Shown here one piece after another: positions 37,719 to 63,576 of a DNA stretch of 64,000 bases. The stretch's first letter is position 1. Each line of letters starts with the position of its first letter. The position numbers and the translations under genes were made by a program. A model generated the notes under the pieces. It searched no databases, was not told the origin of the DNA, and worked only from the letters and a program-made list of their open reading frames with translations. Source of the stretch: Gammaproteobacteria bacterium (GTDB lineage Bacteria > Pseudomonadota > Gammaproteobacteria > Ga0077536); contig SHZM01000002.1 in assembly GCA_009692265.1 (NCBI GenBank), positions 33,074 through 97,073 on the forward strand. Reading direction: 5' to 3'.

Positions 37719-37922
37719 GTGGGAATAGGACGACTCCTCGTCATCGCGGCAATCGCCTGGATCGGCTTCAGGCTTTATCGACGATACCGCAGCAAACCAC
37801 CCTCGCTGATCAAAGACGCAAAGCTAATTCGCTGCGAGGTGTGCGGCGTCTATCTTCCCGAGGCAGATGCTACCGCTTTGCCAAATGGGGAGTTCCGTTG
37901 CTCGCAGCACACTAAGTCATAG
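37719..37922 (+). CDS. Small PP0621-like membrane protein with a Cys pair
   Basis: 67 aa, N-terminal TM then CEVCGVYLPEADA; immediately upstream of pilS, as in Pseudomonas-type loci. Confidence 0.7.
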   Translation: MGIGRLLVIAAIAWIGFRLYRRYRSKPPSLIKDAKLIRCEVCGVYLPEADATALPNGEFRCSQHTKS

Positions 37923-37935
37923 CGGGATCGTCAAA

Positions 37936-39552
37936 GTGCTAGAAATTCGCCAGCGGCGCAGGCTCGAAGCAGGGGCGGGGTATTTGTGGAAGGCGTTACG
38001 CTATTTCAACCTCTATCGGCTGGTGATCGCCGGGCTTTTCACCCTGCTTGGGGGCCTTAAGCGTTTGCCGCCAACCTTCACCGAATTCGACATCCAACTT
38101 CTCACGGTGTCGGCTGCAATCTATCTGAGCGCCGCGATAGGGTTGCAGGTGATAATTGAGCGGCGTCGGTCAACCCCGACCATGGTGCGGAATGGCCAGG
38201 TTGTGCTCGATGTTGCCGCGCTAACCTTGTTTATGCACGCCAGCGGCGGCGCCGCTGGTGGCTTCGGCATTTTACTGGTCGTCGCTGTCGCTGGCGCCTG
38301 CTTAGTGGCGGCTTGGCACGCGTCCTTACTTTTCGCCGCGCTGGCGAGTCTGTCGGTGCTCATCGAAACGGTGTTCGGTAGCCTCTATCTCGCGTATTCG
38401 GCCGCGAGTTACACCCAGGCCGGTCTGCTCGGTGCCGCCCTTTTCGCAACCGCGGTTCTTGCCTCCGTGCTCGCAGAGCAGGCGCGCAAAAGCGAAATGT
38501 TGGCCGAAGAGCGCGCGGTGGCGCTCGAGCAGATGTCGCAGCTTAATGAACATATCGTGCAACGGTTGCGCGCTGGGATTATCGTGCTTGATGCCGAGTT
38601 ACGCCCGGTTCTCGTAAATGCGGCGGCGGCGCATTTAGTGGAGCAGACCCATAAACACGCTGAGCATCCAAAGACTTCAATCGAAGGCGTTATCGCAACT
38701 GCCTTTTACCGCTGGCAGGCTAGTGGTGAAAATCGAAAAACACCGTGGACCTTGGAATCCGGTGCGGAGGTTACCGTGTCGTTCACCCAGCTAGGGCGCG
38801 ACACGGTTGGCAATATTTTGGTGTTCATCGAGGACGCGGCCGAGATGCAACAGCGCGCACAGCAATTGAAGCTAGCTTCATTAGGTCGTCTTACGGCGAG
38901 TATTGCGCACGAAATCCGGAATCCGCTCAGCGCGATTAGCCATGCGGGACAACTACTGGTCGAATCACCCGCCTTGAACGAAGGAGACCGCCGCTTGACT
39001 CAGATTGTTATTGAGCACGCGGGGCGGGTGAACGAAATCATCAAGAACGTGATGATGATAGGGCGCCGCGAGAATGCGATTGCAGAGAGTTTTGCACTTA
39101 GACCTTGGCTGGACGATTTCATCCGCGAGCTGCGCGAACGTCATGCGTTAAGTGAAGATGAGATAGCGACAGAATGGGCTAAGGGTGATCTAGCGGTACG
39201 CATGGATCGCAGTCAGCTAAACCAAGTGTTATGGAACCTGTGCGAGAACGGATTGAGGTATAGTCGATGGCAGCCGAAGCTGCGCCTGGCCTGTGGCCTT
39301 TCGCAGGACGGGGGGCGTCCGTTTCTCGAAATAGTGGATTCTGGACCAGGCATGCCCGCGACAGTCGCCGAGCATATCTTTGAGCCGTTTTTTACCGGCG
39401 AAGCCACGGGGACGGGGCTTGGTTTATTTATTGCGCGTGAATTATGTGAAGCCAATCAGGCGTCACTGACCTTGCTCGATCATGGACAGCAGGGATGTCG
39501 ATTCAGACTTTTATTTGCGCATCCAGACCGACAACAATTAAGCGTTATGTGA
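37936..39552 (+). CDS. pilS: Two-component sensor histidine kinase PilS
   Basis: Multi-TM N-terminus, HisKA SIAHEIRNPLSAISHAGQLL, GTGLGLFIARELCE; followed by pilR. Likely GTG start at 37936. Confidence 0.93.
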   Translation: MLEIRQRRRLEAGAGYLWKALRYFNLYRLVIAGLFTLLGGLKRLPPTFTEFDIQLLTVSAAIYLSAAIGLQVIIERRRSTPTMVRNGQVVLDVAALTLFMHASGGAAGGFGILLVVAVAGACLVAAWHASLLFAALASLSVLIETVFGSLYLAYSAASYTQAGLLGAALFATAVLASVLAEQARKSEMLAEERAVALEQMSQLNEHIVQRLRAGIIVLDAELRPVLVNAAAAHLVEQTHKHAEHPKTSIEGVIATAFYRWQASGENRKTPWTLESGAEVTVSFTQLGRDTVGNILVFIEDAAEMQQRAQQLKLASLGRLTASIAHEIRNPLSAISHAGQLLVESPALNEGDRRLTQIVIEHAGRVNEIIKNVMMIGRRENAIAESFALRPWLDDFIRELRERHALSEDEIATEWAKGDLAVRMDRSQLNQVLWNLCENGLRYSRWQPKLRLACGLSQDGGRPFLEIVDSGPGMPATVAEHIFEPFFTGEATGTGLGLFIARELCEANQASLTLLDHGQQGCRFRLLFAHPDRQQLSVM

Positions 39553-39553
39553 G

Positions 39554-40891
39554 ATGAAACACCAGGCCCTGATCGTCGATGATGAACCAGCGATCCGAGA
39601 GTTGGTCGCGATCACTTTGCGGCGCATGGGCATCGATTGCATGGCGGCCGCGAGCGTGAGCGAGGCGAAGGGGGCCCTGCGCGAACAGGCATTCGATCTC
39701 TGTTTGACCGATATGCGGCTGCCCGACGGCAATGGACTGGGGTTGATCGCGCATATTCAACAGCGCTACCCGCGGCTGCCGGTCGCGATGATTACCGCCC
39801 ACGGCAATATGGAATCCGCGATTCAGGCGCTAAAGGCAGGTGCCTTCGATTTTGTTAACAAGCCCGTTGACATCAATGATCTCAGAAATCTGGTCGCGCA
39901 GGCGCTTAAGGCAGGAGAACTAAAGCTCGATGCCGTCGCGCCGCCGAACTCGCCAGAGTTGATCGGACGATCCGGGGCGATTCAACAACTACATGAAACA
40001 ATCGCGAAGGTCGCGCGCAGCCAGGCTCCCGTGTACATCAGTGGCGAATCGGGAAGCGGCAAGGAACTCGTTGCCCGGCTGATTCACGTACAAGGGCCGC
40101 GCACCAACCAACCCTTTATTCCGGTGAATTGCGGGGCAATTCCGCACGAGCTGATCGAAAGCGAATTGTTTGGACACCTTAAAGGAAGTTTTACTGGCGC
40201 GGTTGCCAATAAGGTGGGTCTTTTCCAGGCGGCCAACGGCGGTACCTTGTTTTTGGACGAGGTGGCCGATTTACCGTTGTTGATGCAAGTGAAACTATTG
40301 CGCGCAATTCAAGAGAAGCGCGTACGCAAGGTAGGCGCTCCTCAAGAAGAGACGGTCGACTGTCGAATATTATCGGCAACGCACAAAGATCTGGCGGAGC
40401 TCGTGGACGCGGGTACCTTCCGCCAGGATCTCTATTACCGAATCAATGTGATCGAACTAAAAGTGCCACCCCTGCGCGCGCGCGGGGACGATATCCTATT
40501 GTTGGCGGAACATGTCGTAACACGCCTAGCGGCGCAGGCGAACGGCGTGGCGTTTACCTTGTCAGATGCTGCGCGTACCGCGCTGCTGACCTACCGCTTT
40601 CCAGGCAACGTGAGGGAGCTCGAAAATATTCTAGAGCGCGCAGTAACACTCTGTGATGGCACGTGCATTGAACCCAGTGACCTGCGATTACCAGTGCTCA
40701 GCGATGCCGAGCGCCAACGCGATCCCAACGACGACACTGGCGAGCTGCAACTGTATCTGGACAACGTGGAACGTAAACGGATCCTGGATGCCCTTGAGAA
40801 AACACGCTGGAACAAGACTCAGGCCGCAAAGCAGCTCGGGATCAGTTTTCGCGCACTGCGCTATCGTCTGGAGAAACTCGGCATCGAATGA
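39554..40891 (+). CDS. pilR: Sigma54-dependent response regulator PilR
   Basis: Receiver domain, GESGSGKELVARLIH, ELFGHLKGSFTGA (GAFTGA-type loop), Fis-type HTH C-terminus. Confidence 0.95.
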   Translation: MKHQALIVDDEPAIRELVAITLRRMGIDCMAAASVSEAKGALREQAFDLCLTDMRLPDGNGLGLIAHIQQRYPRLPVAMITAHGNMESAIQALKAGAFDFVNKPVDINDLRNLVAQALKAGELKLDAVAPPNSPELIGRSGAIQQLHETIAKVARSQAPVYISGESGSGKELVARLIHVQGPRTNQPFIPVNCGAIPHELIESELFGHLKGSFTGAVANKVGLFQAANGGTLFLDEVADLPLLMQVKLLRAIQEKRVRKVGAPQEETVDCRILSATHKDLAELVDAGTFRQDLYYRINVIELKVPPLRARGDDILLLAEHVVTRLAAQANGVAFTLSDAARTALLTYRFPGNVRELENILERAVTLCDGTCIEPSDLRLPVLSDAERQRDPNDDTGELQLYLDNVERKRILDALEKTRWNKTQAAKQLGISFRALRYRLEKLGIE

Positions 40892-41178: not shown

Positions 41179-41619
41179 ATGCAGAAAATGCAAAAGGGTT
41201 TTACCCTCATCGAATTGATGATCGTAGTGGCGATTATCGGCATCTTGGCCGCAGTCGCGGTTCCGGCTTACCAGGACTACACCATCCGTGCAAAAGTCAC
41301 TGAAGGCTTAAGCTTGGCCTCTAATGGTAAGGTTTCGGTGTCGGAATACTTTCAGTCGAGAGGCGCTATGCCGACCGACAACACGCTAGCAGGGATGTCG
41401 CTCTCAACTTCTATCATTGGCAACAATGTAAAAACCGTTGAAGTCACAAGCGATCCTGTTGACGGCGCCATTCATATTACCTACTCGGGTGATCCAATCG
41501 AGGATTCGATACTCATTTTGGTCCCGAGAACCAGCGCTGGCTCGATCGCCTGGAGCTGCTCGGGCACGGGCACCGCCAACTTAGAAAATAAATACCGCCC
41601 GTCTACTTGCCGCGGCTAA
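41179..41619 (+). CDS. pilA: Type IVa major pilin PilA
   Basis: Leader [35 protein letters not shown]-terminal Cys pair (WSC...STC). Confidence 0.96.
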
Positions 41620-41645
41620 CTCAAGCAGCTGTTTGAACAAAGAAG

Positions 41646-41677
41646 ACGCTACGGCTCTTGCCGTGGCGTTTTTTTTT
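41646..41677 (+). terminator. Rho-independent terminator of pilA
   Basis: ACGCTACGGC-tctt-GCCGTGGCGT followed by an uninterrupted T tract. Confidence 0.9.
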
Positions 41678-41705
41678 GGTGCGGCTGCTCACCCGAAAGT
41701 GGTCC

Positions 41706-43610
41706 ATGTTCACTGCTAGTCCTCGCCGGTTTTTTTTCGCGCTATGCCTACTAGGCACTGCGGCGTACTTGCCGGGTCTCGACGGTGGTTTCGCGTTCGA
41801 CGATTACCCAAACATCGTCGAGAATCCAGCGTTGCGTCCGGACGTGGTCTCCTTCAATACATTGGCTTCGGCAGCGCTTTCATCGGATTCGGGACCATTG
41901 AGGCGACCATTGGCATCCTTGTCGTTTCTGGCGAATTATCATTTTTTCGGTATCGGGCCGAAGTCGTTTAAGGTCGTCAACCTGCTCATCCACCTTTGCA
42001 ACGGATGGTTAATTTATTTGTTGCTCACTCGGCTGATGCCGAAGTTTCTTTCCGACCTTGCGCAAGCATCGGCCCTGGCTGGTTTCTGTGCGTTGATTTG
42101 GACGCTACATCCGGTAAACCTTACCGCTGTGTTGTTTGTCGTCCAACGGATGACGAGTCTGGCCGCGATGTTCACCTTACTCGCACTGTTGTGCTACAGC
42201 GCTGCAAGACAGTCGGCCATCTCACAACCCTTTGATTCAAACCTAGGCCTTTGGACTGGCGTGGGAATATTTGCCGTGCTGGGCCTTGCGACTAAAGAAA
42301 ATGCAGTTCTATTGCCACTGTATGCCTTGATGATTGAAGTCACCGTGTTCAAATTTCGCGGTTCTACATGGATCAAGCCGGCCTATGTGAGCGCTCTCGT
42401 TGTCGGCGTTAGTTGTGTGGTTTATCTGCTTGGACCCTATGGATACTTCGATGCGACCTACAGTGCGCGTCCTTTTACGGCGAGTGAACGGCTACTCACT
42501 GAGCTGAGAATTCTCGTTTTCTATCTGGGACAAATTATATTTCCGAACCCGGTAAACATGGTGTTGCTCCACGGGAACTGGACCCTGTCGACAGGGTTAT
42601 TTCAACCGGCGGTCACGGCCGGTGCTGCCGCATTCTGGAGTGTGGCGATTGGTACCGCGCTTGCGACCGCTAGCCGTTTTCCGGTGGTGTTGTTTGGGGT
42701 CGGCTGGTACTTGGTGGGGCACGTATTGGAGTCGACGTATATTCCGTTAGAACTGATTTACGAACATCGTAATTACCTACCGATGCTAGGTCCGGTGTGT
42801 TTGGTGTGTGTTGGGGTAGCGTGCGCTACTGAAGCCATGCCATCTCATAGAACGCTCCTGGCCGGAAGTGCCATTACGATTTTGGCGGTGATGACCACTT
42901 ACCGCGCATGGCAATGGAGTGACTCGTTCACCCTTGCGTTTACCGAGGCGCGGCACAATCCGGAGTCGGCGCGTGCGCGCATGGAATATGCTCGCGTGAA
43001 TTTTCGCCGTTTCATGGTCGAGAAACGACCGGAGCTTCTGGTGACAACACGCGAAGAATTGCACGCCGCGATTAAATACGGCGATCAAGATTTTCACCCT
43101 TTGGTGTCGCTTGTTAACAGTTATTTGATAGCCAATGCGCCGGTTCCCGAGAGGATCCTGCTGTCCTTGCAACAGGAGATGCGGACCGCAAATCCCGCAC
43201 TAAGCTGGCAGGACGGTGTCATTACATTAATAAGATGCCAGATTCTCCGAACCTGTCCCGCGAATCCAACAACAGTGTTACGCGTCACTGCCGCAGCGTT
43301 TGACAATCCACGGTTGCAGCCGGCAGAGAAAGCGGAAATCCTCGAATGGCTAGCGCTGTATTACACGAATGTGATGGGTGATGCGGTTGCGGCGGCCAGG
43401 GCGATTCACGACGCGGTCGAAATCCAACCGAATGACTGGAACTATCGACTGCGGTGGGCTGAAATACTGGCTACCCAGCAGGCATGGAGGGAGGCACGTC
43501 GAGAAGTCCGGCGTGTCACACTGGCGCTGACAAAATTCGATTACTACCTCAAACCAACACAAGTGGCGCGCCTCGAGACGCTTCGTGCAAAACTGGCCTT
43601 GCTCGAATAA
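41706..43610 (+). CDS. TMTC-like polytopic membrane protein with C-terminal helical/TPR-like region (putative GT-C glycosyltransferase)
   Basis: FAFDDYPNIVENP, LSFLANYHFFG, LHPVNLTAVLFVVQRMTSL, LELIYEHRNYLP motifs; start 41706 lies past the terminator. Confidence 0.75.
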   Translation: MFTASPRRFFFALCLLGTAAYLPGLDGGFAFDDYPNIVENPALRPDVVSFNTLASAALSSDSGPLRRPLASLSFLANYHFFGIGPKSFKVVNLLIHLCNGWLIYLLLTRLMPKFLSDLAQASALAGFCALIWTLHPVNLTAVLFVVQRMTSLAAMFTLLALLCYSAARQSAISQPFDSNLGLWTGVGIFAVLGLATKENAVLLPLYALMIEVTVFKFRGSTWIKPAYVSALVVGVSCVVYLLGPYGYFDATYSARPFTASERLLTELRILVFYLGQIIFPNPVNMVLLHGNWTLSTGLFQPAVTAGAAAFWSVAIGTALATASRFPVVLFGVGWYLVGHVLESTYIPLELIYEHRNYLPMLGPVCLVCVGVACATEAMPSHRTLLAGSAITILAVMTTYRAWQWSDSFTLAFTEARHNPESARARMEYARVNFRRFMVEKRPELLVTTREELHAAIKYGDQDFHPLVSLVNSYLIANAPVPERILLSLQQEMRTANPALSWQDGVITLIRCQILRTCPANPTTVLRVTAAAFDNPRLQPAEKAEILEWLALYYTNVMGDAVAAARAIHDAVEIQPNDWNYRLRWAEILATQQAWREARREVRRVTLALTKFDYYLKPTQVARLETLRAKLALLE

Positions 43611-43614
43611 GCGC

Positions 43615-45495
43615 GTGGCTCACCGTCGGAACGACTTTATCACCTTAGGAAGCGCGCTTGTGTTGTTTTTTCTGGTCATCGGCGTTTACTCAGTGGGAAT
43701 TGGTGGTCCGTTGGTATTTGACGACTATGGGACCATTCAACCGCTGCTTAATCTAGGCTTAGTTCCCCACGATTGGCGTGCTTACGTGATAAGTCCGACT
43801 GGACCGTTGGGTCGCCCAATTTCGATGTTGAGCTTTCTGGCAAATCTTCACTGGACTGGAGATAAGCTTTGGCTGTGGAAACTGACGAATATCACGCTCC
43901 ATTGCGTTATCGGCCTGTTGCTTCTGGGAGTCGGGCGGCGGTTATTTCTAATCGCGAACCCGGGATCGCCTCGGGATGCCGAGATCTTCGCTTTTATCAC
44001 AATGGCGCTATGGCTTTTGCATCCCCTTCATCCAAGCACGGTGCTCTATACGGTACAACGGATGACCCAGTTGTCAGCCTTATTCACCGTGGCGGGTATT
44101 CTCGCGTATCTCATTGCGAGGACGCGGAAGGTTGATAATTTCGCCACGCGCGCGTTGCTGTGGGGAAGTTGTTTGGTGTGCTTGCCCCTGGCCGCGTTAA
44201 GCAAGGAATCCGGCCTGCTCTTACCAGCCTACCTCGCAGTGTTGGAGCTTACAGTGTTACATGAGGTGGGTTTGCCTGGCGTGCGCCGGCACTCGCGAGT
44301 GCTCTTACTTTTTTTTCTCGTCGTGCCGGTTGCTATAGGTGGAAGTTATCTCGCGACTCATTTCAGTGAGGCGATCTTGCAACCCCATTTACGGCGTGGG
44401 TTCTCGCTCTGGGAACGCTTGCTGACTGAAAGCAGGGTGGTAATTCACTATCTCGGTTTAATCATTGCTCCGAGCCGTCGAGCGCTGGGGTTTTTTCACG
44501 ATGACATCACCTTATCAACCGGATTACTCGCTCCGTTGAGTACGCTCGGCGCGATTATCGGCCTCGCATCCCTACTAGTAGGGGGCTGGTGGCTAAGGTT
44601 CCGCCTCCCTCTCGTGAGCTGCGGGATTTTATGGTTCTTTGCCGGGCATCTGATGGAGTCGACCATTATTCCGTTGGAACTAATGTTTGAGCATCGAAAT
44701 TATCTTCCGTCCTTTGGCATCATTGTGTCCTTGGTCGGCGCAATGACACTTTCAAGCATCGCACCTCTACGACGGCTTAGAACAACTATCGCGATCGCGG
44801 TTCTGACTCTTTTTACGGCGGTAACGTATTCGATTACACGCGACTGGCGCGATGAGCTTAGCTTGTATACCGCGGGGATCGAGGCACATCCGCGCTCACC
44901 AATAGCCTCCTCGCAACTAGCCGAATTCTATACAGTGAAGAAGCGGTACTCCGATGCTTTGACTACTCTGGCAGCAATCCCCGATACCGGAGCCACTATT
45001 CAGCGGTGGTACATCGCGTGCAAACGCGACGGGAGGATACCCGACAATACTTTCGACGTCGCAGTACTTGCACTCGAGAATTCGCTATCAACTTACTCTG
45101 TAAGCGGGATGGTTGAGCTTGCCAACCTGGGACTCGATGATCACTGTAGATTTCAGCATGAGCAGTTTCTTGAATTACTTGATGGCGCACTGGCCCTCCC
45201 CATGCGGCTCAAGGACAATCGCCAAAAGCTTCTCCTTTATGCCGCGCATTTTGAATGGAAGTTAAAGCGATTTGATTCCGCAATTGAACGACTGGAGCGG
45301 CTTCGAGAACTCATCCCCGAAGAACCAGTTCCATTGTTATTAATGAGCGAATGGCTTCTTGAGGTTGGCGATATAACCCGAGGTAGACAGTCATTGCGAC
45401 ACGCCGAGCACTTGGCTGCGAAGTCGCGGAAGGATTATTCAAAAACACTTCAGAGCGTTCGCGATCTTTATAGCGCGAAAGGCACAAAGTCGTAG
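43615..45495 (+). CDS. TMTC-like polytopic membrane protein, tandem paralogue of the upstream gene
   Basis: LVFDDYGTIQ, LSFLANLHWTG, LHPLHPSTVLYTVQRMTQL, LELMFEHRNYLP aligned with the previous gene; likely GTG start MAHRRNDF. Confidence 0.75.
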   Translation: MAHRRNDFITLGSALVLFFLVIGVYSVGIGGPLVFDDYGTIQPLLNLGLVPHDWRAYVISPTGPLGRPISMLSFLANLHWTGDKLWLWKLTNITLHCVIGLLLLGVGRRLFLIANPGSPRDAEIFAFITMALWLLHPLHPSTVLYTVQRMTQLSALFTVAGILAYLIARTRKVDNFATRALLWGSCLVCLPLAALSKESGLLLPAYLAVLELTVLHEVGLPGVRRHSRVLLLFFLVVPVAIGGSYLATHFSEAILQPHLRRGFSLWERLLTESRVVIHYLGLIIAPSRRALGFFHDDITLSTGLLAPLSTLGAIIGLASLLVGGWWLRFRLPLVSCGILWFFAGHLMESTIIPLELMFEHRNYLPSFGIIVSLVGAMTLSSIAPLRRLRTTIAIAVLTLFTAVTYSITRDWRDELSLYTAGIEAHPRSPIASSQLAEFYTVKKRYSDALTTLAAIPDTGATIQRWYIACKRDGRIPDNTFDVAVLALENSLSTYSVSGMVELANLGLDDHCRFQHEQFLELLDGALALPMRLKDNRQKLLLYAAHFEWKLKRFDSAIERLERLRELIPEEPVPLLLMSEWLLEVGDITRGRQSLRHAEHLAAKSRKDYSKTLQSVRDLYSAKGTKS

Positions 45496-45519: not shown

Positions 45520-46452
45520 CTAGTCTCGATCCCGCTCAATTCGGCGACGTTCAAAATCGGCTTCTTTGTAATGCAAGGAAGATATCAACTCCCCGAGGAC
45601 GCCGATTAGGAAAGTCAGCATGCACGACATATACAACAGCGCGCTCATATTCGTAAAACGATGATGAGCGATAAAGGTATACCCGTAGTACCCGCTCGCC
45701 AATAGAAATAATCCAACGCTGAGCGGAAGGAATAACCGCATTGGTGAGAACAAGGTTCCGATCTTCATGATGATCATCAAAAACCGCAGACCGTCGTGTA
45801 GCAACCGAATATGACTTTTCCCGGCACGTTGCTTGGCGCGAATTGGCACATAGGCAACGGGTAGGCCAGACCGGAAAAAGGCCATCGTGCTGGTCGCGGG
45901 ATACGAAAATCCATTTGGAAGCAGGTATAGAAATCGTTTGAAATGCCGAGCTCGCACGGCGCGAAACCCGGAAGTCAAATCGTCGATTCGGCTTCCAGTC
46001 ATGTAACTCGCGAGGCGATTATAAATGCGATTGGCGAGTCGTCGCGCAAGCGAGGCATGGGTATTCCAGGCGCGAGCCCCTACCGCCATCTCGTACCCTT
46101 CTTCGATTTTCTGGAGTAGTTGCGTGATGTCGTCGGGATCGTGCTGGCCGTCGGCATCCATGAACAACAAAACGTCGCCCCTCGCGTGGCGTGCGCCCGA
46201 TTTGATCGCCGCGCCATTGCCCATTGAATAGGGGTGTCGCAGTCGGGTAACTTCAAAACGCGCACAGATTGTCGCAGTCTCATCGGTACTGCCATCGTCA
46301 ACGACGACTATTTCTGCAGCAGGAAAGGCCGCTCGCAGGTTTGGAAGTAGTTGGGCGAGGCCGTCGGCTTCGTTCTTCGCGGGCAGGACGATGCTTAATT
46401 TTTCATTCGAGCGGGGGTTACCAGTGAGGGCGATCAATTCCTGCACAACCAT
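45520..46452 (-). CDS. Family 2 glycosyltransferase (polyprenyl-phosphate glycosyltransferase type) with C-terminal TM segments
   Basis: SIVLPAKNEADGLAQLL, VVVDDGSTDETA, DADGQHDPDDI, then hydrophobic C-terminus. Confidence 0.88.
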   Translation of the reverse strand: MVVQELIALTGNPRSNEKLSIVLPAKNEADGLAQLLPNLRAAFPAAEIVVVDDGSTDETATICARFEVTRLRHPYSMGNGAAIKSGARHARGDVLLFMDADGQHDPDDITQLLQKIEEGYEMAVGARAWNTHASLARRLANRIYNRLASYMTGSRIDDLTSGFRAVRARHFKRFLYLLPNGFSYPATSTMAFFRSGLPVAYVPIRAKQRAGKSHIRLLHDGLRFLMIIMKIGTLFSPMRLFLPLSVGLFLLASGYYGYTFIAHHRFTNMSALLYMSCMLTFLIGVLGELISSLHYKEADFERRRIERDRD

Positions 46453-46551
46453 GCGGTAGGCCTCCGAATAAGCGAAACGTTACTTGAGCCAGATAGCAGA
46501 GTGCTCGATGCTGTATTGTGCCCCTTGGGCTGCAATAGCGGGAGAAGAAAA

Positions 46552-47697
46552 ATGAAGCGCTGCCTACTAATTACCACGTCCTACCCAAGTCGCGGACCGG
46601 CGGGCGGCGAGGCAGCCGGAGCGTTCGTCCGAGATTTCGCGCAGATTTTGAGCAAGCATATCGAGGTCACGGTGGTGGCACCTGCCCTTCAGGCCGGAAC
46701 CGAGCAGGATGACAACGTGAAAGTGGTCTATTTCCTGGTGCCTAGGATGCCCTTGTCGTTGCTGAGCCCGCTACGGCCCATCGATTGGTGGCCGATTACG
46801 CTTGCATTGAAGCACGGGGCGGCGGCCGCACGGCGTGAAGCAGGTAGCTTTCAGCCCCAGCACATTCTTGCATTTTGGACATTGCCCGGTGGCTTTTGGG
46901 CAAAGCTATGCGCGCGAGCGTTGCGGATACCATACAGCGTCTGGGCACTCGGCAGTGACATCTGGACTCTGGGGAAGATACCGTTAGTGCGCGGCATCCT
47001 TCGCCGGACTTTGCGCGAGGCTAAACACTGCTACGCGGATGGCGAGCAGCTCAGGAGAGACGTCGAGCTACTCTCCGGGCGGTCATGTGACTTTCTCGCA
47101 AGCGCACGCATGCTACCGTGCCCGAAGCGATCGAGGTTCGCGACTCAGGCACCGTATAAGCTCGCCTTTCTCGGGCGCTGGCATGAAAATAAAGGGGCCG
47201 ATATTTTGATGGAGACACTACTGCGATTGAACGACGAGGACTGGCGCTTAATCGACAAAGTGCGAATCGGCGGTGGCGGGCCCTTAGCGAACGTCGTTGA
47301 ACAAGGCGTGCGAGAGCTTCAAAGCGCGGGACGTTCGCTAGAACTCCACGGCTTCATGGGGCGACAAGACGCTGCTGAACTGCTCGGATGGGCGGATTGG
47401 CTCATGATCCCTTCGCGCATCGAAAGCATTCCGGTGATCTTTTCAGATGCGCTGCAGGCGGGATGCCCCATGTTGGCCACTCCTGTCGGAGACCTTGTGC
47501 ACTTAGTAGAGTCTCTCGGAGTAGGCCTGTGTGCCCGCAGCGCGGATAGCGAAGGCTTTACGGAGTTGTTGAAGCGGGGACTGCGCACATCGCCTGGGCA
47601 ATTTAGCAGTGGAATCGTGGCATCGGCACAGAAGTTCAACGTCGCGGAATCCGCGCGAAGATTCCTGCGCGATGCGGAACTCGGAGCACTCGACTGA
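46552..47697 (+). CDS. Family 4-type glycosyltransferase
   Basis: LAFLGRWHENKGADILMETLLRL, GFMGRQDAAELLGWADWLMIPSRIESIPVIFSDALQAGCPMLATPVGDL; likely start MKRCLLIT. Confidence 0.85.
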   Translation: MKRCLLITTSYPSRGPAGGEAAGAFVRDFAQILSKHIEVTVVAPALQAGTEQDDNVKVVYFLVPRMPLSLLSPLRPIDWWPITLALKHGAAAARREAGSFQPQHILAFWTLPGGFWAKLCARALRIPYSVWALGSDIWTLGKIPLVRGILRRTLREAKHCYADGEQLRRDVELLSGRSCDFLASARMLPCPKRSRFATQAPYKLAFLGRWHENKGADILMETLLRLNDEDWRLIDKVRIGGGGPLANVVEQGVRELQSAGRSLELHGFMGRQDAAELLGWADWLMIPSRIESIPVIFSDALQAGCPMLATPVGDLVHLVESLGVGLCARSADSEGFTELLKRGLRTSPGQFSSGIVASAQKFNVAESARRFLRDAELGALD

Positions 47698-47752
47698 ATT
47701 CGGTTTCACCAATTTCTTCGTGTAGAGAAATTCTCGCCAAAGGATAAGGGCT

Positions 47753-48535
47753 ATGCATCCGACGTCTGAAAACGAGCAAGACATGCGCGACCGCTGGGAA
47801 CGACGCGCGATCGAAAAAGGGGGATCGTGCTCCAGTGTGCTTTTTCAGGGGTTGGCCGAGCCCGTTAATGCGCACATTCACACACAGCATTGCGCGGTTT
47901 TAGAAACCAATTTTCTAAATTACATGCCTCGCGGAGCGTTGGTTTTAGATCTCGGCTGCGGGTATGGGCGGCTCGCGCAACAGGTTCGTGCGCGAAGGCC
48001 TGATATTAATCTGGTTGGAATGGATTTTTCGCTCAATTACTGTCTGTTATTCCGCCGAGTAGTCAACGGGCAGGTAATTTGTGGGGACATCCATAATTTG
48101 CCATTTGCTCCTAGTATTTTTGATGGAGTAATCGCGGTCACCGCCCTGATGTACGCCAAGCCAGGTCACCAACAACGAGTCATGAACAACGTGACCAATT
48201 TACTGAAACAAGAAGGACTGGCATTCGTGCTTGATCCAGGTGCTGAATACAGCCGCTTAATTGCATGCTTGCACCCTGCGAGTCGACAAAAAACGACCGG
48301 CGGAGAAAGCTTCTCGAAAGACGAATATCGGAATTTGGCGTACAACGCCGACGTTAGCATCGTGAAGGAAGGTGGATTTCCGTTGCTATCGTTGAGCCTC
48401 CCTGGGTTGTATTTTCTCGGGCGTGGCGCACGGTATCTACGACTGGTATTGAACTTCTTGGCGACAGTAGATAGCGGGCTGAGTACATGGTCGCGTTATT
48501 CGTGTCACCGCTGGATGTTGCTGAAGCGTCATTGA
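47753..48535 (+). CDS. Class I SAM-dependent methyltransferase
   Basis: ALVLDLGCGYGRLAQQV motif I, NLVGMDFS. Confidence 0.82.
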   Translation: MHPTSENEQDMRDRWERRAIEKGGSCSSVLFQGLAEPVNAHIHTQHCAVLETNFLNYMPRGALVLDLGCGYGRLAQQVRARRPDINLVGMDFSLNYCLLFRRVVNGQVICGDIHNLPFAPSIFDGVIAVTALMYAKPGHQQRVMNNVTNLLKQEGLAFVLDPGAEYSRLIACLHPASRQKTTGGESFSKDEYRNLAYNADVSIVKEGGFPLLSLSLPGLYFLGRGARYLRLVLNFLATVDSGLSTWSRYSCHRWMLLKRH

Positions 48536-48543
48536 GGACCACG

Positions 48544-49293
48544 ATGAAATCACTCCGGCAAAAGGCCACCAGCTACTCTAAAGATCAAGATGCTCATCGC
48601 AAGGTTCTAGATTGCGAGTCGCGTACTCGAAAAGCCGAGAAAATCAGAGCCGTTCTACGCGCTGCTGGTGCCTTGTCCAAAGACACCAGGGTACTGGATA
48701 TTGGATGTTCGCATGGGCATATCCTGAAGAATTTGGCACAGGACTCTGGTTACTGTGTCGGCGTCGATATGGATCGTGAGGCAGAGCGACAAACCGCATC
48801 GAACATCGCCTATATCTTGGGCGATGGTGAGCAACTACCGTTCGCCGCACAGAGTTTTGATGTTGTCATTTGCAATCACGTTTATGAACATACCGACAAT
48901 CCACCGACCCTGGCAGCGGAAATTCTTCGCCTGCTGAAGCCAACTGGCGTTTGTTACTTTGCCGGTCCGAATAAATACAGCCTCATAGAGCCACACTACC
49001 ATCTGCCATTCTTAAGTTGGTTACCGCAAGGAGTTGCAAACAGTTATGTCCGCCTGTGTCGCAAGGGCGATGCCTATCTAGTGCGTCCGTATTCGTATCG
49101 TCAACTTGTGGATTTGTTGGGCAGCTTCAACGTCGAAGACTACACACCTCGGATCATCGAGCATCCAGAGCGCTTTCATATCCAAGACCTGATCGCTCCT
49201 GGTTCCGTGCTTCAAAAAATGGCACGACTAAGCTACACACTATGCAGAGGTTTATTCCCGACGTTTATTTTTCTCCTTCGGCGACCGCGGTAA
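48544..49293 (+). CDS. Class I SAM-dependent methyltransferase
   Basis: RVLDIGCSHGHILKNLAQ, FDVVICNHVYEHTDN; likely start MKSLRQK. Confidence 0.85.
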   Translation: MKSLRQKATSYSKDQDAHRKVLDCESRTRKAEKIRAVLRAAGALSKDTRVLDIGCSHGHILKNLAQDSGYCVGVDMDREAERQTASNIAYILGDGEQLPFAAQSFDVVICNHVYEHTDNPPTLAAEILRLLKPTGVCYFAGPNKYSLIEPHYHLPFLSWLPQGVANSYVRLCRKGDAYLVRPYSYRQLVDLLGSFNVEDYTPRIIEHPERFHIQDLIAPGSVLQKMARLSYTLCRGLFPTFIFLLRRPR

Positions 49294-50170
49294 TCCCGTT
49301 GGTGAGCGATGCCTTGAGGGTCAGGGCGATACTGGCGAGTGCAAAATCAATTGTTACCTGCCAGATCCTTGCAAGTAGCGCGATGCTAGCCGCCTGCTCG
49401 AAACCCAAGCTCGGTGCGAGGATGGCGACGTAAGCGCCTTCTTGAACCCCTAACCCTGCCGGCGCAAAGAATGCCAGGATTCCCACCTGGGTCGCCACAA
49501 TGAAGGCGAAGATAAGTAACGGCAACTGTACGGTCGAATCTAGAAAGGCACCTACAAATATCGCCAGTGCCCCTCCTCGTGCGAGTTTTTGCATGGCCAG
49601 CAGCGCAAGATGCAGTGGCAGACGTTTTAATTTGCTGCGCTGCTCTCGAAAGTAGCGCCAACACGCGAGTAATGTGAGTACGCAGGCGATAATCGTCAAA
49701 CCCGCGCCGATCACCACGTCCTCATCAACCGGAAAAGCGACGAGCACCCATAGCCCAAGAACAGCCAGAGCGACAGAGGCCAGAGTAGAGGTTGCAGTTA
49801 TGTAAACCTGAAAAAAACTAGCGTCGAATACGCTTATATTTCCTAGTTCCTTAGCGTGGTAAAGATAACTGCCGACTGCCCAAATCCGTCCCGGCACGTA
49901 TTTACCCATTGTGGGTAAAAAAGTTAAAACAAACACGGTAGGCAATCTTAGCGAACGATGGTTGGCGCGAAAATAATCCCACATGACCCATGCTAAAAAT
50001 AGCATGAAGGTTCCGCCTAACAGCAGACCCAGCATCATTCCCGAGGGATGAAGTAAACGAATTTTGCGAAAGGCGGCCGTGATGAAGTCCGCTAGTTTCC
50101 AGCCGACGATCGAAAAAACGATTAACCACGCGATAGTGAGCAACCTACCCAAGGCTTGAGTGCTAGGCAT
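49265..50170 (-). CDS. UPF0104/AglD-like (lysylphosphatidylglycerol synthase TM family) membrane protein
   Basis: Polytopic; AFFAPAGLGVQEGAYVAILAPSLGFEQA matches the P.G.G.REG-type family motif. Confidence 0.75.
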   Translation of the reverse strand: MPSTQALGRLLTIAWLIVFSIVGWKLADFITAAFRKIRLLHPSGMMLGLLLGGTFMLFLAWVMWDYFRANHRSLRLPTVFVLTFLPTMGKYVPGRIWAVGSYLYHAKELGNISVFDASFFQVYITATSTLASVALAVLGLWVLVAFPVDEDVVIGAGLTIIACVLTLLACWRYFREQRSKLKRLPLHLALLAMQKLARGGALAIFVGAFLDSTVQLPLLIFAFIVATQVGILAFFAPAGLGVQEGAYVAILAPSLGFEQAASIALLARIWQVTIDFALASIALTLKASLTNGITAVAEGEK

Positions 50171-51098
50171 AACCCATCGTGTCGAGAGTCGGTTCAATTT
50201 TTTTCAGGATTCGATCGAAATGATCGGGGAACGGGAAGGCACCTTTGCTCGGAGTGGTATTTATTTCAGGCAAGGACCCCTGTAAGAAAGGTGCAAATCG
50301 GACGAGGGGGAGATCTAAAAATTTCGCCAGCCGAGCAAGTTCCGTGGCGGGGTTTGTCGCCAGTGTTTCTGTTTTTACGGACAATACTCGTTGGGGAGAG
50401 TGGTGTTTGAAATCCAAAATTCTTTTCTGACACATCTCCCACTGCCAAGCACACACATCGGTTAAATGCTTCTGGGTATACGACCGCCACCCTTCGGGCA
50501 GCATAAAATTCCATGCTGCCCCTTCATACCCCTCGATCTCGAGTTTCTCTGGAACATGAAAAGTCACGAATCGCCGGGGGTACAACCACGCCTTCAGCAT
50601 CGATTCAATGGCCGCCATCCCGTGGCGTTGCACATGAACAAATTTCGCGTCAGGAAACATTTCGCCGAGCAACTCCATGCGTAGACTATTGCTGGCGGTT
50701 TTATCCAGCAATCTGCGCGGCAGTGCGTCACGGAAGGGGTTGCACGCGAATAAGAAGGGCGCGGCTTTGAGGTAGACCCCGCCCGCGATTTTGCGCGTGG
50801 CGGTTGGTTCGTACTCCCAAATTCTTTCCGGGTTTACGACATGGCGCCAGAACCAGTGCGGCATGGACTGTTGTTCATAAAGCAACCGGATCCGGTTTTT
50901 TTCTCGTAGCGAGATTTCGGAGGGTAAATGGCATTCTTCAGAGCGCCATGCATGCAGTGATGGATGGCAGGCAGTATCCCAAATATGCTGTCCCTCGCTC
51001 GGCAGTGACCAGAATTTCTGAGAAGTGCGAACGATGTGAAATAGCAGCGACGTACCCGAGCGTGGTGCCCCAACAATAAAGACCGGTTTATGTATCAC
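50163..51098 (-). CDS. Sulfotransferase family protein
   Basis: N-terminal PVFIVGAPRSGTSLLFHIV (5'-PSB loop); PDAKFVHVQRHGMAAIESMLKAW (3'-PB-like region). Confidence 0.85.
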   Translation of the reverse strand: MIHKPVFIVGAPRSGTSLLFHIVRTSQKFWSLPSEGQHIWDTACHPSLHAWRSEECHLPSEISLREKNRIRLLYEQQSMPHWFWRHVVNPERIWEYEPTATRKIAGGVYLKAAPFLFACNPFRDALPRRLLDKTASNSLRMELLGEMFPDAKFVHVQRHGMAAIESMLKAWLYPRRFVTFHVPEKLEIEGYEGAAWNFMLPEGWRSYTQKHLTDVCAWQWEMCQKRILDFKHHSPQRVLSVKTETLATNPATELARLAKFLDLPLVRFAPFLQGSLPEINTTPSKGAFPFPDHFDRILKKIEPTLDTMGYA

Positions 51099-51215
51099 TC
51101 CGAGGCAGCCTTGTTGCGATCGATCGACTTGCGAAGCGTTGGCTGACGCGCGCGCGTTCGCGTACGGTTTTGATTAAAAAGTGCCTTGCGGAAGGTTCGC
51201 ATGAGCGGCATTAGC

Positions 51216-52385
51216 TCAGCGCGCCAGGAGTAAGGAAACGCATGAAATGACATCCTCGATATCGGCATCGAGCAATTTCGGTCCGAGCGGCAGGCTTACT
51301 GTACACCGGCCGGCGGCGGTCGCGTGCGGATAATCCTCCGGCCGCCAACCGAACCGCTCCTGGTAATAGGGGTGTTCGGCAAGGCAAAGATAATGTACGC
51401 CCACTCCTATCCGATGCCGGGTCATTTCCGCCAGAAACTCGTCGCGGCTAAGTGGGGCGGTTGGATCCAGGAGCACTGTGTAGAGATGCAAACCATGCCT
51501 GGTATTGGGTGCGGTCACGGCAGGCAATTGGGCAGGTAAATTCGCGAACGCGGTCTGATAGCGCTCCCAGATTACCCGTCGCCGTTGCCAATGCGCCTCG
51601 ATCTTCGCGAGTTGATGTAAGCCAATGGCGGCTTGCAGATCCATCATGTTGTACTTGAAGCCGCACTCGACCACGTAATAGTGCTTGTAGCCGCTATCGC
51701 TGAAGCGCGTCCAGGCATCGCGATCCATTCCGTGCAAAGCCAACGTTCGGACTCGACCAGCGGCAGCCAGATCGCGAGTGACTACCATCCCGCCTTCGCC
51801 CGTTACAACGTTCTTCGTGACATAGAAGCTGAAGCAGCCAAAAGCACCAAACGTTCCGGCTTTCTTTCCGGCATATTCGGTTTCGATGGCGTGCGCGCAG
51901 TCTTCGATGATGGTCAGATTATGTAACTCGGCGAGCGCCATTAGTGCTGGCATCTCGCAAGGACGGCCAGCGAAATGGACTGGCACGATGGCGCGAGTAC
52001 GCGGGCTAATTTTGGCGCGCACCGCCGTAGGATCCAAATTGAGGGTCACAGGATCGATGTCCGCAAGGACCGGCGTCGCCCCCGCGTGAATGATGGCATT
52101 CACCGTCGCGCAAAAAGTGAGCGGAGTCGTGATGACCTCGTCGCCGGCTTGGATTCCGGCTGCGATCAGACTGACGTGCAACGCTGCCGTACAGGAATTT
52201 ACCGCCGCGACGCAGGCGGGATCGATCCCCTTATACTCGGCGAATGCTTCTTCGAATTGCTTCACCTTCGGTCCCGTGCCGAGCCAACCGGAGCGCATCG
52301 TTGCGACGACTTCCTCGATCTCTTCGTCACCGATGAGAGGTGATCCAAAAACCAGGAACTCCTGACGCGGCGGGCGAGTCGTCAT
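51216..52385 (-). CDS. DegT/DnrJ/EryC1/StrS family sugar aminotransferase
   Basis: CTAALHVSLIAAGIQAGDEVITTPLTF, EDCAHAIET, CFSFYVTKNVVTGEGGMV PLP-lysine region. Confidence 0.92.
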   Translation of the reverse strand: MTTRPPRQEFLVFGSPLIGDEEIEEVVATMRSGWLGTGPKVKQFEEAFAEYKGIDPACVAAVNSCTAALHVSLIAAGIQAGDEVITTPLTFCATVNAIIHAGATPVLADIDPVTLNLDPTAVRAKISPRTRAIVPVHFAGRPCEMPALMALAELHNLTIIEDCAHAIETEYAGKKAGTFGAFGCFSFYVTKNVVTGEGGMVVTRDLAAAGRVRTLALHGMDRDAWTRFSDSGYKHYYVVECGFKYNMMDLQAAIGLHQLAKIEAHWQRRRVIWERYQTAFANLPAQLPAVTAPNTRHGLHLYTVLLDPTAPLSRDEFLAEMTRHRIGVGVHYLCLAEHPYYQERFGWRPEDYPHATAAGRCTVSLPLGPKLLDADIEDVISCVSLLLAR

Positions 52386-53110
52386 ATTAAGAGTTCGTTT
52401 CGGTTCTCTAGCAAAATGCGGTTAGCTTCAAACAAAGAATCGAAAGTTCCTGCGTCAGTCCAGCGGCCGCGACAAAAGCTGTACTGCAATTGTTGGCGCT
52501 GGATATAAACATTATTGACGGCGGTGATCTCCAGTTCGCCGCGTACGGATGGAGTGATCCCGCGAATGATCTCAAACACTGTTTCATCGTAGAGATATAA
52601 GCCGATCACTGCGTACGCTGACTTTGGTTGTGACGGTTTTTCTTCGATATCGATAATTTGATGTTCGTCCAACGCGGCGACCCCAAAGCGTTCAGGATCG
52701 CCTACTTGTTTCAACAGGACGCGCGCACCAGAGCTCTGCGCGGAATAGGCTTTCACGTACGGTTCAATACAGTATTCAAAGACATTATCACCCAACAGCA
52801 CACAGAGGCGCTCACCGCCGCAAAACCGTTCGGCCAAGGCCAGTGCATGCGCGATTCCGCCCGCGGTTTCTTGCACGCAGTAGGCGAGATGACAATTAAA
52901 TTCGTCACCGCTGCCCAAACAGCGCACGATGTCTCCCATGTGCAGGGTACTGGTGACCACTAGGATGTCGTGAATGCCGGCAGCAGTCAGCTGCTTGATC
53001 GGGTGGTAGAGCATCGGCTCCGTGCCGACTGGCAGCAAGTGTTTATTCGTCGCCTTTGTTAAAGGATGCAGGCGGGTACCGAGCCCGCCAGCGAGGATAA
53101 TGCCTTTCAT
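52382..53110 (-). CDS. Glucose-1-phosphate thymidylyltransferase (short RmlA-type nucleotidyltransferase)
   Basis: GIILAGGLGTRLHPLTKATNKHLLPVG, LLGDNVFE, WTDAGTFDSLFEA; 242 aa; 4-nt overlaps on both sides. Confidence 0.9.
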   Translation of the reverse strand: MKGIILAGGLGTRLHPLTKATNKHLLPVGTEPMLYHPIKQLTAAGIHDILVVTSTLHMGDIVRCLGSGDEFNCHLAYCVQETAGGIAHALALAERFCGGERLCVLLGDNVFEYCIEPYVKAYSAQSSGARVLLKQVGDPERFGVAALDEHQIIDIEEKPSQPKSAYAVIGLYLYDETVFEIIRGITPSVRGELEITAVNNVYIQRQQLQYSFCRGRWTDAGTFDSLFEANRILLENRNELLI

Positions 53111-54180
53111 CGCGCGTCCAAGCCTATCCGTTCACCGTTGTAACTCCCTGCCATGACTTGATCACACCAGGAGATATTCGTCAGATACCATTGCACAGTT
53201 TTTACCAAGCCGTGAGTAAAGTCGAACTGCGGGGTCCAGCCGGTTTCGCGCTGAATCTTCTCAATATTCATTGCATACCGAAGATCGTGTCCCGGTCTAT
53301 CGGTCACAAACTCGATTAATCGCCCGTGCAGTCCCCTCGGGTCGGGCGCAAATTCGTCCAGCGCCCTGCATAACGCCTGTACGAGCTCAAGATTAGTCAT
53401 CTCGATCCCGCCACCAAGATTGTAATGCTCCCCAATTCGGCCCCGACACAGCACAACTTCCAACGCCGCCGCATGATCCTCAACGAACAGCCAGTCACGC
53501 ACATTCTCGCCTCGCCCATAGACGGGGAGAGGTAAGCCGCGACACGCGCGCAGGATAGTCAGTGGGATGAGTTTTTCCGGAAACTGATAAGGACCGTAAT
53601 TATTCGTACAGTTAGAGACCACGCAAGGTAACCCGTAGGTGTGGTGCCACGCGCGGACCAGATGATCGGAGGCCGCTTTACTCGCGGAGTAGGGTGAGTT
53701 CGGGCGATAAGCGTCGTCTTCACGAAACGCTGGTGCCGATAATGCCAGGCTGCCATAGACTTCGTCAGTCGAAACATGATGAAACCTAAATCGATCACGT
53801 CGTTCGCCCGTTAATCCCTGCCAGTACTCGCGGGCCGCGGAGAGCAATGAATAGGTGCCGACGATATTGGAATGAATAAAGGCAGCCGGGGAGTCAATCG
53901 AGCGATCCACGTGAGATTCAGCCGCTAGATGCATGATCGCGTCGGGTTGAAAATCGACTAATGCGATTGATAGAGCCTCGGTATCGCAAAGGTCCAATGC
54001 AAGATGGCGATGCCGAGGTTCACCGTCGAACTGGGACAGAGTCGCCCGCGTGCCTGGAAACGAGAGGCGATCGATATTGAGGATTTCCAGCGTTGGATGC
54101 CGCAGCAGCGTACGTACAACGTGATTCCCGATGAACCCAGCGCCGCCTGTAATCACGAGCCTTTGAAAGGGGAAAGTCAT
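53107..54180 (-). CDS. rfbB: dTDP-glucose 4,6-dehydratase
   Basis: VITGGAGFIGNHVVRTLL, HVSTDEVYGSL, YSASKAASDHLVRAW, NCTNNYGPYQFPEKLIPL. Confidence 0.94.
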   Translation of the reverse strand: MTFPFQRLVITGGAGFIGNHVVRTLLRHPTLEILNIDRLSFPGTRATLSQFDGEPRHRHLALDLCDTEALSIALVDFQPDAIMHLAAESHVDRSIDSPAAFIHSNIVGTYSLLSAAREYWQGLTGERRDRFRFHHVSTDEVYGSLALSAPAFREDDAYRPNSPYSASKAASDHLVRAWHHTYGLPCVVSNCTNNYGPYQFPEKLIPLTILRACRGLPLPVYGRGENVRDWLFVEDHAAALEVVLCRGRIGEHYNLGGGIEMTNLELVQALCRALDEFAPDPRGLHGRLIEFVTDRPGHDLRYAMNIEKIQRETGWTPQFDFTHGLVKTVQWYLTNISWCDQVMAGSYNGERIGLDAR

Positions 54181-54199
54181 CGCGAAAATTGTCGCTGCT

Positions 54200-54985
54200 T
54201 TACTGCAATGGCGCTGCCAGCAAGATGGCACGCATCTCGTCGTAGATCTTAGGGCTCGCGGCCACGATATTGCCGTCCTTTAACAATTCTTCCCGTTCGC
54301 CAATGGTGCCAACGAGACCGCCGGCTTCCTGCACCATCAACGCGCCAGCGGCAATATCCCACGCATGCAAGCCGTACTCCCAATAGCCATCGAGACGACC
54401 TGCGGCGACATAAGCAAGGTCGAGGCTTGCCGACCCCGCCCGCCTCACGCCGTCGGTCCGATGCAAAAAGGTCGCGAAGGATTTTAGATAGGGATCGATC
54501 ATCTTTTCATCGCGGATCGGAAATCCGGTAGCCAGCAGCGCATTGTCGAGTAAACGGCATTTACTAACGCGTAAACGCCGCTCGTTGAGTTGGGCGCCGC
54601 CACCGCGGGAGGCTGTGAACAGCTCGTCGCGAATGGGATCATAGATCACGGCTTGCTCAACCGTGCCCTTAACCGCGAGTGCTATTGATACCGCAAATTG
54701 CGGATAAGCATGTAGAAAGTTCGTCGTGCCATCGAGCGGATCGATGATCCATACAAAAGCACTGGTACCAACGTTGCCGGACTCTTCCGCCATGATCTGA
54801 TGGTCCGGATAAGCCTTAAGCAAGGTCTCGATGATCGCAGACTCCGCCTCGCGATCAACGTTCGAGACATAATCGCGTGGTCCTTTTGCTTCGACCTGTA
54901 CCGTGTCGAGCCGCGCCATGCTGCGCGAAATGATGGTGCCGGCCCGCCGCGCGGCACGTACGGCGATATTCAACATGGGGTGCAT
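54200..54985 (-). CDS. suhB: Inositol monophosphatase family protein SuhB
   Basis: WIIDPLDGTTNFLHAYPQF, AWDIAAGALMVQEAGG; divergent from trmJ. Confidence 0.93.
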   Translation of the reverse strand: MHPMLNIAVRAARRAGTIISRSMARLDTVQVEAKGPRDYVSNVDREAESAIIETLLKAYPDHQIMAEESGNVGTSAFVWIIDPLDGTTNFLHAYPQFAVSIALAVKGTVEQAVIYDPIRDELFTASRGGGAQLNERRLRVSKCRLLDNALLATGFPIRDEKMIDPYLKSFATFLHRTDGVRRAGSASLDLAYVAAGRLDGYWEYGLHAWDIAAGALMVQEAGGLVGTIGEREELLKDGNIVAASPKIYDEMRAILLAAPLQ

Positions 54986-62577: not shown

Positions 62578-63576
62578 CTAATGCGCGGTACCGATGGCGG
62601 CGAGGTGCCCGCGTTTCAATTGCTCATCGAAATAGCCAATCGTTTTCACCAGGCCTTGCCTTAGTTTAATCGTGGGCTCCCAGCCGAGCTGCTGTTGCGC
62701 GCGGGTAATGTCTGGGCAGCGCTGTTTGGGATCATCACTCGGCAGTGGTTGGAAGATCACGGTAGAACGTGAGCCCGTCAGTTCAATGACGATCTTGGCG
62801 AGATCGGCAATGGCAAATTCGTCTGGATTGCCGAGGTTTATAGGACCGGTGATATCGTCTGGCGTATTCATCAGAGCCACGAGCCCTGCGACTAAATCGT
62901 CGACATAGCAGAACGAGCGAGTTTGTTGGCCGGTGCCGTAGAGGGTGATCGGCTGGTTTTTCAAAGCTTGCATGATGAAATTCGACACTACCCGACCGTC
63001 GTTCGGATGCATGCGTGGTCCGTAGGTATTGAAAATACGCGCAACCTTGATCTGCAATTGATGTTGGCGGTGGTAGTCGAAGAACAAGGTTTCGGCGCAG
63101 CGCTTGCCTTCGTCATAGCAGGCGCGAGTGCCGATGGGGTTCGCATGCCCCCAATAAGTCTCTACCTGCGGATGGACTATGGGGTCGCCATACACCTCGC
63201 TGGTGGATGCCTGGAGGATCCGTGCGCGTACGCGTTTCGCCAAGCCCAGCATATTGATCGCGCCATGCACGCTGGTTTTGATGGTTTGCACCGGGTTGTT
63301 CTGATAATGAATCGGCGAGGCCGGACAGGCGAGGTTATAAATCTCATCAGTCTCGACATACAGTGGAAAGGTCACATCATGTCGCATCAGCTCAAACAAC
63401 GGATTACCTAGAAGTGGCGAAATATTGTCTTTCGATCCGGTATAAAAATTGTCGACGCAGAGCACGTCGTGGCCGGCACGCAGCAAAGTTTCGCATAGAT
63501 GCGAACCGAGAAATCCCGCACCGCCAGTGACCAGAATCCGACGACGCGTTGCAGTTAATGGCGTTGAGTAATCCAT
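62578..63576 (-). CDS. UDP-glucuronate decarboxylase (UDP-xylose synthase), SDR family
   Basis: [63 protein letters not shown]. Confidence 0.92.

Follow-up and report, generated by a model that had tools for sequence, protein, structure and literature searches.

Two tandem genes located directly downstream of the major type IV pilin gene pilA, here designated TM1 and TM2, probably encode inner-membrane glycosyltransferases of the GT-C type which would depend on lipid-phosphate-linked sugars to glycosylate the pilin PilA, and which belong to an unnamed family resembling the animal TMTC enzymes. A probability of about three in four was attributed to this reading, which was drawn from sequence comparison and structure prediction. 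The genes lie in a stretch of 64,000 nucleotides (the window) from a Gammaproteobacteria bacterium (GTDB Ga0077536; assembly GCA_009692265.1, contig SHZM01000002.1, positions 33,074-97,073, forward strand), in which pilS, pilR, pilA, a terminator-like hairpin, TM1, TM2 and a convergent gene for a family 2 glycosyltransferase (GT2) follow one another; the collections behind the naming hold mostly uncultured genomes. An earlier reading of the window's sequence (the original prediction) had placed a tandem pair of membrane proteins directly after pilA, where both open reading frames were indeed found, and had read the pair as two enzymes of an uncharacterised class that O-glycosylate the pilin or a surface protein. 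The proposal of pilin glycosylation was strengthened by the adjacency to pilA across many families, the terminator-bearing cassette, the GT2 partner, the GT-C profiles and the co-divergence with the pilin, and was weakened by a minority of relatives located away from any pilin.

In the proposed pathway, GT2 would join a single sugar to polyprenyl (undecaprenyl) phosphate at the cytoplasmic face of the membrane, and some flippase would turn the lipid-linked sugar over. TM1 and/or TM2 would grip the lipid phosphate through R67 and R355, with D32 and D33 of the first periplasmic loop serving metal and acceptor binding, and the sugar would be moved onto surface residues of PilA, probably Ser/Thr, while the pilin stands in the inner membrane, on the periplasmic side, before pilus assembly. 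The tail, predicted to be periplasmic and similar to tetratricopeptide repeats (TPR), may position the acceptor.

Association with pilA and GT2 across distant loci

The neighbourhood of TM1/TM2 relatives was surveyed in 100 loci, nearly all from outside the window's family (a few were of mixed origin), in which pilins, TM genes and GT2 were marked. It was observed that a pilin gene immediately preceded the TM gene in the same orientation in 64 of them (63 by script, and L178, missed by the motif filter), versus a single locus with a pilin directly downstream, which served as a built-in control (63 versus 1, Fisher p 4e-24). A profile of pilA adjacency, named in the original prediction as a check, spoke in its favour. 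A GT2 similar to that of the window was found downstream of TM in 63 of the 100 loci, and at least two TM genes in tandem in 14. A gene similar to the GT4 of the window recurred near the cassette, its cluster being present in 29 loci, and the clustering of neighbours yielded the order pilS-pilR-pilA-TM(-TM)-GT2-(GT4). In the window's family, pilA precedes TM1 at every locus whose contig covers that side, and its GT2 proteins, 63-79% identical to that of the window, are in several loci encoded convergently, with no gene between them and the TM gene(s); other loci have them in the TM orientation, and in two they lie a few kb off. In the genomes of this family, a pilin was detected in 16 of 17 with TM versus 6 of 19 without it (Fisher p 1.4e-4, genome relatedness being uncorrected).

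The GT2 protein combines a domain similar to Dol-P-Man synthase (DPMS), ArnC and GtrB with a C-terminal membrane anchor, the features by which polyprenyl-phosphate sugar synthases are recognised. Its matches in the PDB, over residues 17-293, included ArnC (E 4e-18), Dol-P-Man synthase (E 6e-14) and Sll0501 (E 5e-12). No GtrA-like flippase was recognised in the cassette. Such a recurring partner bears on the donor. GT-C enzymes such as STT3 and PglB take oligosaccharides (PMC7801869), and the nearby GT4 and sugar genes could make a longer lipid-linked glycan, so that pilin-linked enzymes using a donor other than a lipid-monophosphate sugar, for instance a lipid-pyrophosphate oligosaccharide in the manner of oligosaccharyltransferases (OTases), were also considered. 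However, this possibility has very little to recommend it, since an ArnC/DPMS/GtrB-like GT2 makes lipid-monophosphate monosaccharides and the membrane domain matches ArnT/PMT-type profiles, in a comparison that comprised ArnT/PMT-type and MFS transporter profiles only.

Predicted fold and relation to known enzymes

Full-length TM1 and TM2 were modelled with AlphaFold2 from family alignments, with predicted local distance difference test scores of 94.9 and 95.4, respectively. The models and the hydropathy indicated 11 membrane helices, with a first loop of 60 residues holding the DD pair, a long loop with a lateral helix between helices 7 and 8, and helical hairpins stacked at the C-terminus, an arrangement also described for TMTC (PMC7801869). 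The tail was all-helical in both models and matched the Pfam family TPR_19 in TM2 (E 1e-7), weakly in TM1, in agreement with the TPR-like C-terminus of the original prediction.

The membrane-domain profile was compared by hhalign with two ArnT/PMT-type alignments built here, transporters of the major facilitator superfamily (MFS) being used as the negative control. Probabilities of 91 and 93 were obtained in local mode and 96 in global mode, versus 0.5 and 1.8 for the control; the likeness spanned the N-terminal half, and the forced global alignment placed FDDY opposite the catalytic motif PDERY. By these profiles, the predicted membrane domain matches a GT-C-like module of the ArnT/PMT branch and not the MFS.

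Conservation was assessed in an alignment of 130 relatives, in which D32 (the first Asp of FDDY), R67, N92, P136, Q147, R148, K197 and R355 were invariant and D33 was conserved in 129. At a conservation threshold of 90% of the sequences or more, 37 positions were retained, of which all but two face the periplasm in the predicted topology (35 of 37, p 5e-8). D32, D33, R67, K197 and R355 stand at or near positions listed for TMTC/ArnT function, which were assigned to metal/acceptor binding (DD), lipid phosphate binding in extracytoplasmic loop 1 (EL1), the Lys of EL3 and lipid phosphate binding in EL5 (PMC7801869). The proposal that FDDY in the first extracytoplasmic loop represents the acidic GT-C motif was supported by this conservation and by its position opposite PDERY; the acidic D-D of EL1, the profile similarity and the multiple membrane helices with predicted extracytoplasmic active-site residues are among the marks of a GT-C enzyme.

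The same residues bear on a non-catalytic role. TfpY-like accessory proteins are likewise encoded behind pilA and a terminator (PMC11841053), and pilus assembly factors can have TPR domains, as does PilF, which was among the Foldseek matches of the models. Nevertheless, it seems very improbable that TM1 and TM2 are assembly accessories of this kind, devoid of glycosylation, considering that the polar DD, QR, KE and EHRNY are invariant or nearly so in the 130 sequences, that the GT-C profiles are matched, and that a gene similar to lipid-phosphate-sugar synthases is conserved next to them.

TMTC1-4, the animal O-mannosyltransferases of family GT105 that glycosylate cadherins, share with TM1 and TM2 an 11-helix GT-C module followed by a C-terminal TPR domain, extracytoplasmic by prediction in the present proteins, as well as DD and RP in EL1, a Lys in EL3 and an Arg in EL5, located as described in PMC7801869. 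However, DUF1736 (PF08409) was unmatched by Pfam in TM1, TM2 and 66 relatives; a scan of 150 genomes for PF08409 also gave no match, which proves no absence because its controls were likewise silent. The pair formed by the EL2 Asp and the EL3 Lys (D169/K219 of TMTC1) is incomplete, with K197 invariant and the Asp replaced by Thr, Ala or Asn, the DW of EL4 is mostly replaced by HDD and kept in some TM1 orthologues only, and the TM1/TM2 family is bacterial and linked to pilA and GT2. Since the EL2 Asp is missing and DUF1736 was not found, the family would be TMTC/ArnT-like in its working and not TMTC by defining features. The TMTC link drawn in the original prediction therefore held for the overall layout of 11 helices and TPR and for the EL1, EL3 and EL5 residues, and failed as strict membership.

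Other known systems were compared as well. ArnT/PMT-type GT-C enzymes (PF02366, PF13231) share the profile similarity and, in the global run, the aligned D-D/E of EL1, but their Pfam families were not matched by the single sequences, ArnT acts on lipid A, and neither ArnT nor PMT has a TPR domain. The Pseudomonas pilin arabinosyltransferase TfpW is also of the GT-C type, is encoded after pilA behind a terminator and modifies several pilin sites (PMC11841053); in contrast, it draws on a D-arabinofuranose donor pathway, and its description, on which the comparison is based, includes neither a TPR tail nor a tandem pair. TfpO, TfpM, PglS and PglL also target type IV pilins, the first three often adjoining their pilin (PMC12645811), but they belong to the WaaL/Wzy_C superfamily and transfer glycans en bloc, and no Pfam match of the Wzy_C/O-antigen ligase type was found in TM1, TM2 or the 66 relatives. 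The substrates of TfpO and TfpM end in Ser (or Thr), whereas the PilA of the window ends in Gly.

The pilin as putative acceptor

The co-divergence of pilin, enzyme and GT2 was evaluated by partial Mantel tests given PilR, in 31 loci holding all four genes and with pilin distances taken without the N-terminal helix. TM distances were correlated with those of the pilin (0.35, p 0.0005) and of GT2 (0.24, p 0.0005), but pilin and GT2 were not correlated with each other (0.01, not significant), a pattern that fits an enzyme touching both the pilin and the GT2 product. PilR, encoded near pilA on its other side, gave no significant correlation with the pilin (0.15, p 0.14). The link between pilin and TM was kept with 64 loci and for both halves of TM. 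The TPR tail was also considered in the 64-locus test as the pilin-specific part, and this was set aside, the signal being weak and not robust.

A cytoplasmic lipid-phosphate-sugar synthase coupled to a periplasmic GT-C enzyme is equally the layout of the GtrA/GtrB/Gtr* systems, the three-component polysaccharide modification whose acceptor, different from the one proposed here, is the O antigen (PMC11127046). TM1 and TM2 could thus be Gtr/ArnT-like enzymes whose acceptor is a polysaccharide or lipid, such as O antigen or exopolysaccharide side chains, and lie beside pilA without acting on the pilin, as may be suggested also by the sugar locus downstream in the window (rmlB-like, DegT, GT4 and methyltransferase genes) and by the UDP-glucose dehydrogenase beside some relatives. 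This was judged unlikely, given that in distant loci pilA stands directly upstream far more often than on the other side, that TM co-diverges with the pilin yet pilin and GT2 do not co-diverge, and that pilA and the terminator precede the genes.

Several observations weigh against pilin glycosylation by TM1 and TM2. Of the 36 loci without an upstream pilin, 10 were at contig ends, leaving 26 of 100 in which the contig end was not the cause, and part of the family may accordingly serve other acceptors; some of these pilin-less loci adjoin a UDP-glucose dehydrogenase or a secretin. No invariant Ser/Thr site was found among the cassette pilins, and the Mantel tests do not completely separate out shared ancestry or block transfer. 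The GT2 gene of the window sits on the strand opposite to the TM genes. As for catalysis, the acceptor-binding EL2 Asp of ArnT/TMTC is not conserved, residue 150 being Thr in 80, Ala in 36 and Asn in 12 of the 130 relatives; Foldseek searches of the full-length models against the PDB returned TPR proteins only, which swamped any signal from the membrane domain, and showed no GT-C neighbour, and neither TM1 (phmmer) nor the membrane-domain profile (hmmsearch) matched any PDB entry.

Relatives without a neighbouring pilin, possibly a non-pilin branch, were noted at L172, L174, L175 and L180. At L174 the gene directly follows that of a UDP-glucose dehydrogenase, a place taken at L172 by a gene of equal length, and at L180 it directly follows a secretin gene.

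The gap between pilA and TM1 contains a hairpin followed by nine T, with a minimum free energy of -25.5 kcal/mol for positions 41636-41680 (z -7.05 versus shuffles). By the same rule a similar hairpin was found in 43 of 65 pilA-TM loci; a simple consensus terminator scan did not list that of the window. In Pseudomonas pilin cassettes, a terminator after pilA damps the accessory gene (PMC11841053), and the hairpin described here would similarly hold enzyme levels far below those of the pilin. This terminator and the antisense GT2 are features absent from the original prediction.

Two paralogues, their family and phage relatives

TM1 and TM2 were 32% identical over 450 aa by BLASTP, a likeness not due to chance in view of its E value of 5e-50. 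The motif set that had been reported for the pair, FDDY, LSFLAN, LHP..VQRMT.L and LEL.(Y/F)EHRNYLP, was present in both, together with K-E. When a tree was built from 77 membrane domains, a single clade united second-position genes from the window's family with those of tandem pairs in other families (17 rows; Shimodaira-Hasegawa-like approximate likelihood ratio test, 100), which supports the ancient paralogy already suspected. Most family members, TM2 included, carry HDD in EL4, in place of which TM1 of the window's genus has HGNW or HADW (HGNW in the window, residues 289-292, positions 42570-42581). Because the second-position clade extends across families and EL4 differs, the split is old, and the tree supports TM1 and TM2 as anciently separated paralogues whose roles are probably specialised; start and extension of a glycan, two sites or an obligate heterodimer are possible divisions. 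An unexplained DW motif also marks EL4 in animal TMTCs (PMC7801869); its likeness to EL4 of TM1 may be a coincidence.

Features of the cassette, with their neighbours and phage relatives
Feature	Position	Strand	Basis and remarks
pilS, sensor kinase (context)	37867..39552	+	6TM_PilS PF25323 E 9e-33, HATPase, HisKA; same position in relatives
pilR, sigma-54 response regulator (context)	39554..40891	+	Sigma54_activat E 2e-68, Response_reg
pilA, major type IVa pilin, presumed acceptor	41179..41619	+	Pilin PF00114 E 6e-22, N_methyl E 1e-10
Rho-independent terminator-like hairpin and T9, pilA/TM1 gap	41640..41677 (core stem 41647-41668)	+	Folding, z-score
TM1, 11-helix GT-C-like protein with C-terminal helical repeats, first-position paralogue	41706..43610	+	ATG, 634 aa; AlphaFold2, conservation, family GT-C profile match
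TM2, second-position paralogue	about 43615..45495	+	Frame open from 43585, probable GTG start 4 nt past the TM1 stop, 626 aa; AlphaFold2, second-position clade, EL4 motif
GT2, polyprenyl-phosphate sugar synthase-like, hydrophobic C-terminal segments, presumed donor maker	45520..46452	-	Glycos_transf_2 E 2e-31
GT4-type glycosyltransferase	46501..47697	+	Glyco_trans_1_4 E 2e-14; link to cassette uncertain
Phage relatives	L222:5833-7455, L221:5761-7452, L220:5773-7497, L219:5773-7176

TM1 and TM2 were the only TM copies in the whole genome. TM1 relatives were present in 22 of 40 close genomes and in 110 of the 370 genomes drawn from across the Gammaproteobacteria (~30%), mostly beside a major pilin. 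No model of Pfam 2025, NCBIfam 2026 or PHROGs recognised the membrane domain in 66 diverse members scanned, in which only scattered weak matches of single members appeared, one of them to ArnT (E 7e-4). The collections of plasmid and phage records gave no match, and no description of a TMTC/TPR protein paired with a pilin was found in the openly accessible literature searched. The TM1/TM2 family is large, unnamed and without a curated membrane-domain model. If pilin glycosylation by these enzymes is correct, a widely used way of decorating pili would come to light, along with a bacterial enzyme that works like the animal TMTCs, is easier to study and may be of use in attaching sugars to proteins; the layout of pilin, enzyme and GT2 makes the system directly testable.

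In Pseudomonas, the binding of phages is influenced by pilin glycans. Relatives of TM1/TM2, ~540 aa long with a short tail and 24-32% identity, are encoded on tailed-phage contigs of IMG/VR and keep DD, RP, QR, KE and EHRNY. Their genes sit downstream of that of the major head protein, flanked on one side by the gene of a protein with a signal peptide and on the other by an adaptor/tail gene, and the phage enzyme could possibly modify a receptor. A more tentative extension, doubtful as a whole, would see in the cassette a third kind of pilin glycosylation beside the WaaL-type O-OTases and TfpW, in which one paralogue starts a short glycan directly on PilA and the other lengthens it, both drawing on a lipid-phosphate monosaccharide from GT2, and in which tailed phages have acquired the enzyme, perhaps altering the receptor.

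A sugar-nucleotide and polysaccharide region, which might supply the donor, occupies positions 46501-54231 and 62578-63576 of the window. It includes the GT4, two methyltransferases, an LPG-synthase-TM-like protein, a sulfotransferase, a DegT aminotransferase, RmlA-/RmlB-like proteins and a UXS-like epimerase. For the Rml- and UXS-like members, the name was assigned by reading the sequence. A further GT-C-like membrane protein is encoded in this sugar region (55827-57356, - strand), with a weak PMT_2 match and FMADDALY in its first loop.

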